Source: Patescibacteria group bacterium (lineage in GTDB: Bacteria > Patescibacteriota > Patescibacteriia > Patescibacteriales > Patescibacteriaceae). From it: DNA of 64,000 nt. The number at the start of each line of letters is the position of its first letter. Within the stretch, counting starts at the first letter, position 1. This document shows, in pieces, positions 13,536 to 27,377 of this stretch. The notes beneath the pieces were generated by a model. It worked only from the letters and a program-made list of their open reading frames with translations, was not told the origin of the DNA and did not search any database. The position numbers and the translations under genes are program-made. The stretch covers positions 1-64,000 of the forward strand of contig JAQWEL010000001.1 of NCBI GenBank assembly GCA_028704945.1. The letters are read 5' to 3'.

Positions 13536-14459
13536 ATGAAAAAAATAATCAATCAATTTTTAGAACACTTAGAGGTCGAAAAAGGCTTATCAACTCTTAC
13601 TATACGCAATTACCATTTTTATTTAAATCGCTTCGAACAATTTGCTAAAGAACACGGCGTCAGCAAAATAGAAAAAATCGACAAAGACTTAATTCATAAT
13701 TTTCGTTTACATTTAAATAGATTAACTGATGAAAACAATGAACCGCTCAAAAAAAATACCCAAAATTATCATCTGATTGCTATAAGAGGTTTCTTAAAAT
13801 ATTTGGCTAAAAACGACATCACCAGTTTGGGCCCAGAAAAAATAGACCTCGCCAAACAAGAGCCAAGACAAGTGACTTTTTTAGAAGGAGTTGAGTTAAA
13901 AAACATATTAGAAGCTCCATTAAATACAAACAATGATGAATTGATGCGCTGTCGTGATAAAGCGATTTTGGAATTATTTTTTTCAACTGGTTTACGTGTA
14001 TCTGAATTAGCCAAATTAAAAATTGATGATATAAATTTGGACAAAGAAGAATTTACTGTCCGCGGTAAAGGCAAAAAAGTTCGCATAGTTTTTTTATCTG
14101 ACGAGGCTCGTTCGGCTTTAAAAAAATATTTAAGTAATCGTCAAGATGTTAATCCTTATCTTTTTATTAATTTAGATCGAGCTAGAAAAACAGTCGACGA
14201 ACCGATTACTTCACGCTCAATCGAAAGATTAGTGGTTAAATACGCCAAGCTGGCCGGCATTATGAAATCAGTTACGCCACACACTCTGCGCCATAGCTAC
14301 GCCACTGATTTATTACTGAATGGAGCTGACATCAGAAGCGTCCAAGCAATGTTGGGACACTCATCAATTACCACCACTCAAGTCTATACCCATATTACCG
14401 ATAAACAGTTAAGAGAAGTGCACAAAAAATTTCACGACAAAAAAAGCCCGAAAAAATAA
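13536..14459 (+). CDS. xerC: Tyrosine recombinase, XerC/XerD type
   Basis: Site-specific recombinase resolving chromosome dimers at dif. It has the N-terminal SAM-like core-binding domain (residues 3-95) and the catalytic domain with Arg154 (TGLRVSEL), Lys180, His249 and Arg252 (HTLRHSYA), His275 (LGHSS) and nucleophile Tyr284 (TQVYTHI). All six catalytic residues are present. At 307 residues it fits XerC/D; which one, or whether it acts alone as in some reduced genomes, cannot be told. No dif site was found nearby. A tRNA-linked repeat that resembles an att pair lies 700 bp downstream. Confidence 0.9.
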   Translation: MKKIINQFLEHLEVEKGLSTLTIRNYHFYLNRFEQFAKEHGVSKIEKIDKDLIHNFRLHLNRLTDENNEPLKKNTQNYHLIAIRGFLKYLAKNDITSLGPEKIDLAKQEPRQVTFLEGVELKNILEAPLNTNNDELMRCRDKAILELFFSTGLRVSELAKLKIDDINLDKEEFTVRGKGKKVRIVFLSDEARSALKKYLSNRQDVNPYLFINLDRARKTVDEPITSRSIERLVVKYAKLAGIMKSVTPHTLRHSYATDLLLNGADIRSVQAMLGHSSITTTQVYTHITDKQLREVHKKFHDKKSPKK

Positions 14460-15144: not shown

Positions 15145-15216
15145 GCGCCCATAGTTCAATGGATAGAACACCAGCCTTCTAAGCTGGCCATGAGGGTTCG
15201 ATTCCCCCTGGGCGTA
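15145..15216 (+). tRNA. tRNA-Arg (anticodon UCU)
   Basis: Cloverleaf: acceptor GCGCCCA with TGGGCGT (G-U at position 1), D arm GTTC/GAAC, anticodon stem CCAGC/GCTGG with loop CTTCTAA giving anticodon UCU (reads AGA), T loop TTCGATT. One T-stem pair is mismatched (A-C). No encoded CCA. The last 16 bases and the terminator are duplicated 227 bp downstream. Confidence 0.93.
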
Positions 15217-15264
15217 CTAAAAATAAAAAACAGAGACGTCAATCACAGTGTCTCTGTTTTTGTA
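15201..15264 (+). repeat. 64-bp direct repeat, copy 1 (tRNA-Arg 3' end plus terminator)
   Basis: Begins at ATTCCCCCTGGGCGTA in the tRNA T arm and runs through the terminator to TTTTTGTA. It is identical over all 64 bases to 15428-15491. Confidence 0.97.
15226..15261 (+). terminator. tRNA-Arg terminator
   Basis: AAAAACAGAGAC (15226-15237) pairs perfectly with GTCTCTGTTTTT (15250-15261). An identical second copy at 15453-15488 ends the downstream structured element. Confidence 0.92.
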
Positions 15265-15280
15265 TAGTACTGCGTCAGAA

Positions 15281-15433
15281 GGGAATCGAACAGGTTGGCA
15301 GTAAGACATGAGTTGAGTCGGAAGACGAGACGAATAGTCGAACGTCTGACGATATGCCCCAAGGCATATTGTCAGCCAACCCAGGACAAGTGAACGAGGC
15401 GGAATTCTGCCGCCGAGTAAGCGCGAAATTCCC
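15281..15433 (+). ncRNA. Candidate structured RNA inserted between the two repeat copies
   Basis: The 163 bp between the repeats (15265-15427) are about 52 percent GC by my count, far above the surroundings. They fold into a plausible multibranched RNA: closing stem GGGAAT 15281-15286 with ATTCCC 15428-15433; GGTTGGC 15293-15299 with GCCAACC 15375-15381; inside it AGACG/CGTCT and an 11-bp hairpin 15348-15358/15363-15373 (loop CCAA); and GGCGG 15398-15402 with CCGCC 15410-15414. A terminator follows (repeat copy 2). I do not recognise it as tmRNA, RNase P RNA, SRP RNA or 6S RNA. Alternatives are a minimal mobile element or a decayed tRNA-like gene. No protein frame here is convincing. Confidence 0.45.
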
Positions 15434-15491
15434 CCTGGGCGTACTAAAAATAAAAAACAGAGACGTCAATCACAGTGTCTCTGTTTTTGTA
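15428..15491 (+). repeat. 64-bp direct repeat, copy 2
   Basis: Exact copy of 15201-15264, holding the tRNA-Arg 3' end and its terminator without the rest of the tRNA. The arrangement resembles an attR left by integration at a tRNA 3' end. Confidence 0.97.
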
Positions 15492-15522
15492 ATGTTATTT
15501 CAGGGGGGATCGAAAAAAAATG

Positions 15523-16796: not shown

Positions 16797-16835
16797 AAAA
16801 AAACAGAGAAACCAATTATAATCTCTCTGTTTTTT
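16797..16835 (-). terminator. Terminator after the Nramp-like gene
   Basis: The inverted repeat ACAGAGA/TCTCTGT is flanked by A and T runs. The minus-strand T run ends the Nramp-like unit. Confidence 0.85.
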
Positions 16836-27086: not shown

Positions 27087-27240
27087 CCGTAATATGATAA
27101 AAATCTTAAACCAAGCGATATCACAATGTTAGTGTTGCGGAGACTCCTCAGGGATTTCCGCACTCGGTTATTCCTTTAGAATAACCTGCCTACCGACAGG
27201 CAGGTTTCTGACCTGTTCGAATCCCCTCTTATCACTTTAT
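27087..27240 (+). other. Palindrome-rich, tRNA-like non-coding segment
   Basis: Contains GGTTATTC CTTTA GAATAACC (8-bp stem), CCTGCCTACCGACAGGCAGG (27186-27205, palindromic), GCGGA/TCCGC, and a T-loop-like GTTCGAATCCCCTC near 27214. It also repeats TGCGGAGAC, the tRNA-Ser 3' end, at 27136. I could not build a complete cloverleaf. It may be a decayed tRNA or a small repeat element. Confidence 0.3.
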
Positions 27241-27285
27241 CATAAAGCAATATCCACCTTTATTCAAGGTGGATATTGCTTTATG
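27241..27285 (-). terminator. tRNA-Ser terminator, 20-bp perfect hairpin
   Basis: CATAAAGCAATATCCACCTT (27241-27260) pairs without mismatch with 27266-27285 around TATTC, directly after the tRNA-Ser 3' end. It is an unusually long stem for a terminator. Confidence 0.85.
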
Positions 27286-27377
27286 CGGAGACGAGAGGAT
27301 TCGAACCCCTGATGCCCTTTTGAGGGGCATACCGCATTTCGAGTGCGGCGCATTCAACCGTGCTCTGCCACGTCTCC
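27286..27377 (-). tRNA. tRNA-Ser (anticodon CGA)
   Basis: Minus strand: acceptor GGAGACG/CGTCTCC, anticodon stem CCGCA/TGCGG with loop CTCGAAA giving CGA (reads UCG), a long variable arm with ATGCCC/GGGCAT, T loop TTCGAAT. The ~92-nt class II form fits serine. Discriminator G, no encoded CCA. Confidence 0.95.

Follow-up and report, generated by a model that had tools for sequence, protein, structure and literature searches.

The window, i.e., the whole analyzed stretch of 64,000 nucleotides, carries a tRNA-Arg(TCT) gene followed by a terminator-like palindrome, a linker, a structured core and a repeat of the tRNA 3' end together with its terminator (Table 1). A sequence-only reading of this DNA had described a 64-nt repeat (15201–15264 and 15428–15491) enclosing a foldable insert of 163 nt with approximately 52% GC. 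Both repeat copies were indeed found to be exact and to span the terminator as well as the tRNA 3' end, and the GC content of the insert amounted to 52.1% compared to 33.8% for the window. Including flanking sequence, the insert was predicted to fold with −70.3 kcal/mol (z −5.8), a value that no shuffled sequence equalled; the 153-nt core folded at −59.1 (z −6.25), and again no shuffle was as good. Furthermore, the Xer-type gene reported approximately 700 bp upstream is present at 13536–14459, 686 bp away.

Table 1. Coordinates of the element behind tRNA-Arg(TCT) and of the reduced second copy within the window.
Feature	Position	Strand	Remark
tRNA-Arg(TCT), gene in front of the element	15145..15217	+	T-arm target GTTCG/ATTCCC at 15196-15206
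17-nt tRNA 3' end, copy 1 (A58 to nt 73)	15201..15217	+	repeat part common to most family members
Terminator-like palindrome 1	15218..15264	+	arms 15226-15237 / 15250-15261; closes the 64-bp repeat
Linker	15265..15280	+	small hairpin in 46/61 relatives
Guide GGGAATCGAAC	15281..15291	+	exact reverse complement of own T-arm 15196-15206
Helix P2, 5' strand GGTTGGC	15293..15299	+	
Helix P3	15300..15346	+	tandem G-A pairs and GGAA loop
Helix P4, variable hairpin	15347..15374	+	covariation very strong
Helix P2, 3' strand GCCAACC	15375..15381	+	
Single-stranded linker, CAGGACAAGTGA	15382..15393	+	conserved
Helix P5	15394..15425 (limits approximate)	+	tandem G-A pairs
Tail = tRNA 3' end, copy 2	15428..15444	+	
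Terminator, copy 2	15445..15491	+	
GGGGGGATCGAA, probable guide remnant of decayed unit 2	15503..15514	+	9/11 match
Reduced element copy 2 of the window	27150..27225	-	behind tRNA-Ser(CGA) 27285-27377 (-)

Within this locus, the conserved unit of the family comprises positions 15281–15433. A closing helix involving the second repeat copy, likewise proposed by the sequence-only reading, was retained in part by family comparison: the 6-bp helix GGGAAT/ATTCCC is conserved, whereas the acceptor-stem part (15266–15280 with 15434–15444) is not. The first six guide nucleotides (15281 onwards) also pair with the tail at 15428–15433. A guide-like remnant located 70 nt past the tail points to a decayed second unit at this place, and the 64-bp repeat is accordingly best interpreted as the left portion, comprising tRNA 3' end and terminator, that two tandem units have in common. 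A further terminator showing 81% identity to the repeated one (15225–15261) is located at 16798–16834, next to an Nramp gene.

Spread and structure of the element family

The initial reading had proposed a BLASTN-type search as a check and had named missing homologues and an assembly artefact among the grounds for refutation. Screening of 192 related genomes with the insert revealed homologues beyond chance level in other genera and families (E-values down to 6e-35). Some of these genomes hold several copies each, and a same-genus genome gave none. With a covariance model, the element was detected in 41 of 111 genomes at the order level, 65 of 381 at the class level and 19 of 380 in a phylum sample, ten of these 19 being placed outside the class. 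Named records with copies represent Patescibacteria, namely Ca. Falkowbacteria and similar MAGs. In total, 11 element copies were counted in the window's genome. The reduced second copy of the window features the same layout as the first, i.e., terminator, linker, guide GGGATTCGAAC, hairpins and tail. A large number of contigs stop at a copy or close to one, as is typical of repeats, which could point to an assembly artefact; the same layout in approximately 100 independent genomes, including single-contig assemblies, has already refuted this explanation, and its probability is negligible.

The insert had not been matched to a known RNA in the initial reading, and Rfam covariance models applied at gathering and relaxed thresholds agreed, the matches appearing at relaxed thresholds being chance only. 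The family of approximately 150-nt structured elements is not an Rfam family. Phage and plasmid collections contained no element copy; a single viral-contig match was rejected as a chance similarity to coding sequence. No paper on such an element was found, this literature comparison being limited to open-access papers.

Members of the family share the order tRNA, long terminator-like palindrome, linker, 11-nt guide, core and second tRNA 3' end. In the core, helix P2 encloses P3 and P4 and is followed by the conserved stretch GGACAAGTGA and by P5. A terminator-like stem of at least 9 bp, mostly of 15–24 bp, precedes the element in 60 of 61 copies. Compensatory changes, also suggested beforehand as a check, were abundant among 64 sequences: 30 of the 31 pairs were altered at both positions, and pairing in the consensus holds for 90.9% of cells compared to at most 38.7% with partners slid. 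In four copies (L128, L131, L070, L107), the linker mirrors the whole tRNA 3' end as its reverse complement, so that a single long palindrome extends from the tRNA end through the terminator into the guide.

Tandem G-A pairs occur in P3 and P5 of most sequences and, where tandem GA/GA is absent, are usually replaced by Watson-Crick pairs. Because these pairs are possible on the tRNA-sense strand only, this strand was deduced to be the folding one; counts of G-U versus A-C (35 vs. 24 in pairs common to both strand predictions) did not settle the strand. With RNA energies, 81% of the consensus pairs were recovered on the tRNA-sense strand compared to 58–62% for the other strand or DNA energies, a comparison that is partly circular as the consensus was predicted with RNA energies. 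The folded strand would more likely act as RNA than as ssDNA.

Placement behind tRNA genes and cognate guides

Copies are located approximately 50–60 nt 3' of tRNA genes on the same strand. Occurrence of the same insert at other tRNA ends, which the initial reading had counted as possible support, was observed for 16 isotypes and 26 anticodons. The tRNA end lies within 100 nt in 61 of 95 copies, and most of the others belong to arrays, follow an island or sit where a contig ends. Within a further set, 34 of 54 copies are positioned at most 120 nt from a tRNA, and none of the 54 copies checked has an opposite-strand tRNA beside it. Copies also appear to target tmRNA genes (L082 and L128:10401-10550), the tail matching the tmRNA 3' end.

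In most copies, the duplicated tRNA end forms an exact repeat of 16–17 nt (nt 58–73), and first terminators are not inherited together with the core. Insertion at tRNA 3' ends and a repeated tRNA terminus flanking the insert are also known from tRNA-gene integrative islands mobilized by tyrosine or serine recombinases; the element differs from these in being non-coding and only approximately 230 bp long, with no integrase gene inside, and in featuring a strongly structured core and an antisense T-arm guide. The direct repeat of the tRNA 3' end could represent a conventional attachment scar, i.e., attL/attR left behind when an ordinary integrative element was excised or deleted. This explanation is very unlikely, as scars would not be expected to share a covarying core of 150 nt that is conserved and combined with a cognate guide at 16 isotypes, and the family refutes it unless all copies stem from one element type keeping the core at its end. 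Copies and remnants form tandem arrays behind tRNAs, second guides or remnants following 22 of 136 copies compared to 1 of 136 in a control stretch. The Xer–tRNA-Arg neighborhood is present in a genome of the same genus (G001) from which the element is absent, representing an empty site.

Nucleotides 1–11 of the element are the reverse complement of nt 53–63, the T-arm of its own tRNA, with a perfect match in 61 of 93 cases. Guide mismatches summed up to 46, whereas 10,000 permutations, which ignore relatedness, gave 139 on average and never fewer than 118. Rare T-arms are exactly mirrored by the guide in many cases, such as Cys (..TTCCG), Lys (GAGCCCC), Trp (TTCTC) and Gly (CCAATTCCC). As the duplication comprises nt 58–73, the guide spans its start (after nt 57). 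Furthermore, cores that are 88–95% alike behind different tRNAs carry different, fitting guides, which argues against simple co-inheritance.

Such a match might also arise in a resident non-coding RNA gene family acting on the neighboring tRNA, in which a read-through RNA would use its guide, co-evolving with the tRNA in place, to pair with the T-arm and thus take part in tRNA quality control, processing or regulation. The best folding as RNA on the tRNA-sense strand is in line with this idea, as is the observation that the guide mirrors the T-arm of a given tRNA down to single changes (L099/L105). Patchy presence within genus and family, tandem arrays with duplicated tRNA ends and a core tree that is not sorted by tRNA (nearest neighbor of the same isotype in 16 of 61 cases) speak against it. 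In addition, the terminator-like palindrome lies directly upstream and a sigma-70-like promoter was not found on the plus strand before the core, which is awkward for an RNA gene; a resident RNA gene family is therefore considered unlikely. The cognate 11-nt match in each copy rather suggests a mobile element finding or adapting to its tRNA target by pairing, and the element probably represents a short non-coding mobile unit that is aimed at, or re-fitted to, tRNA T-arms. Of the two options originally offered, a mobile element at a tRNA site or a structured RNA, each turned out to be partly right, since the element is mobile-like at the tRNA 3' end and at the same time possesses a covarying fold without Rfam match. 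Its two most telling features, the 11-nt antisense match to the T-arm of its own tRNA and the family of copies behind 16 isotypes, were beyond the reach of that reading.

Islands at the same tRNA genes and candidate enzymes

At many loci, islands of 1–18 kb are located between tRNA and element. In the window's genome, an 18-kb island (G000:C7:30400-48650; L119, L215) between tRNA-Gln(CTG) and a structured element encodes a DRT2 reverse transcriptase, an Alw26I-type restriction-modification system, HamAB (Hachiman), a ParB-methylase and a large serine recombinase. Metal-resistance, DGR, Fic and further genes were found in other islands, and some element arrays hold cargo between elements. The island behind a tRNA-His gene contains a likely diversity-generating retroelement (L201:3955-5478; RT plus probable variable protein), and the one behind a tRNA-Gly gene (L122:3978-10872) encodes a tyrosine integrase, a type II restriction system and a Rep of the rolling-circle type; it is nested in front of a structured element whose tRNA-Gly 3' fragment is intact.

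Islands of this size, including the 18-kb defense island, and arrays with cargo in between would fit an element that serves as attC-like site of cargo cassettes or islands, with the tRNA T-arm as attI and the small units as cargo-free cassettes. However, the junction before most island-split elements consists of GTTCNAACNNCGTCC followed by the tRNA's last bases, and this separate junction also ends serine-recombinase islands without structured element. Interpretation of the cargo islands as cassettes of the element was dropped since the junction matches the right ends of these element-free islands. Owing to the common junction, the islands are better read as separate serine-recombinase elements that inserted independently at the same hot spots and came to lie between tRNA and element.

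At either end of the folded attC site of integrons lie conserved AAC/GTT R boxes (PMC2727003). The motifs RYYYAAC and GTTRRRY were found together at the ends in none of 64 copies on either strand, and no IntI is encoded in the window's genome, its XerA-like protein scoring 133 bits compared to the IntI cut-off of 265. The element is not an integron attC site. Features shared with integron cassettes are the folded single strand, pairing inverted end boxes, insertion by a fixed site and tandem arrays of units, which were indeed found beside the fixed insertion site. In contrast to the one imperfect hairpin of attC, the core of the element is branched, with two hairpins enclosed by P2 and with P5 in addition; the element also folds on the tRNA sense strand, targets any tRNA T-arm and consists of units without gene. 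An attC-like role in cargo cassettes is already weakened by these results and must be regarded as improbable.

Large serine recombinase genes (L300, L302, L303, L304, L305, L308-L313) are mostly located directly 3' of a tRNA (Ser, Gln, Ala) and face it. The right ends of the serine-recombinase islands have GTTCNAACNNCGTCCCACC in common, with the final 8 bases of the tRNA behind it, which suggests a serine-integrase island family specific for tRNA 3' ends.

In order to name a partner enzyme, several families were considered, and none was consistently present among the element-bearing genomes tested. The role implied for the Xer gene upstream of tRNA-Arg was not supported: its product matches NF040815 (XerA-type; 230 bits, cut-off 220) as a housekeeping recombinase, and its synteny with tRNA-Arg is kept in the element-free genome of the same genus. 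It is the sole tyrosine recombinase gene of the window's genome, and tyrosine recombinases were rejected as partners because several complete element-bearing genomes have the housekeeping Xer only. Likewise rejected were the Y1 HUH transposase (PF01797; above cut-off in 1 of 13 element-bearing panel genomes and absent from the window's genome), the DEDD transposase of IS110 (PF01548; in 1 of 12 element-bearing genomes) and reverse transcriptases, RVT_1 being absent from 6 of 13 element-bearing panel genomes; the window's genome encodes two RTs, one of which is the defense protein DRT2. All three families are missing from several element-rich genomes. Serine recombinases are more common in element bearers (11 of 12 vs. 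3 of 7); these were also rejected, as most of them belong to separate tRNA islands and one bearer with a completeness rating of 100% lacks any.

Proposed mode of action and significance

Among guide-bearing systems, IS110 bridge RNAs and IS200-IS605 guides resemble the element in that a guide complementary to the target site is embedded in a structured nucleic acid. They differ in that the guide of the element is fitted to each insertion site, the element is non-coding, and the IS110 or Y1 transposase is missing in most of the element-bearing genomes tested. MITE, REP/RAYT and SINE-like sequences are also short, non-coding, present in many copies and presumably mobilized in trans, whereas the element is restricted to tRNA 3' ends and carries a cognate guide, and its partner enzyme was not found. 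As possible analogies, a retroviral primer-binding site is complementary to a tRNA 3' region, and the internal guide sequence of a group I intron spans a two-exon junction; unlike these, the element shows no reverse transcriptase association and no group I intron match in Rfam. Based on these comparisons, it resembles integron cassettes or guide-bearing insertion sequences to some degree in its way of working, yet fails the tests for their defining features.

The sequences show the family, its structure and position, the guide match, the duplication, the arrays and the switched guides; for a short mobile unit aimed at T-arms, we infer from these mobility, an order of events, RNA over DNA, guide rewriting and an enzyme provided in trans as follows. 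Via its guide, the tRNA-sense strand, folded and present as RNA (ssDNA being less likely), would pair with the T-arm, and strand exchange or cleavage would take place within the T-loop. Duplication of the tRNA 3' end (nt 58–73) would keep the tRNA intact, and the guide would then be corrected to the new target, e.g., by repair of the guide-target heteroduplex. Repeated events would generate tandem arrays decaying away from the tRNA. The more far-reaching version, namely an RNA-guided mobile element that rewrites its own guide at every insertion into the complement of the entered T-arm and is able to spread over all tRNA genes of a genome, is put forward tentatively, as a possibility less probable than its opposite.

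Guide-target pairs represent a natural record of guide change and thus make the mechanism testable by sequence comparison and simple assays. Since the same tRNA ends host defense and metal-resistance islands, the element marks, or competes for, major integration hot spots. If the proposed mode of action is true, a non-coding element that moves among tRNA genes and whose 11-nt guide recognizes, or is fitted to, the target would represent a new way of DNA targeting in bacteria, and the very reduced, largely uncultured Patescibacteria would possess a mobile element of their own.
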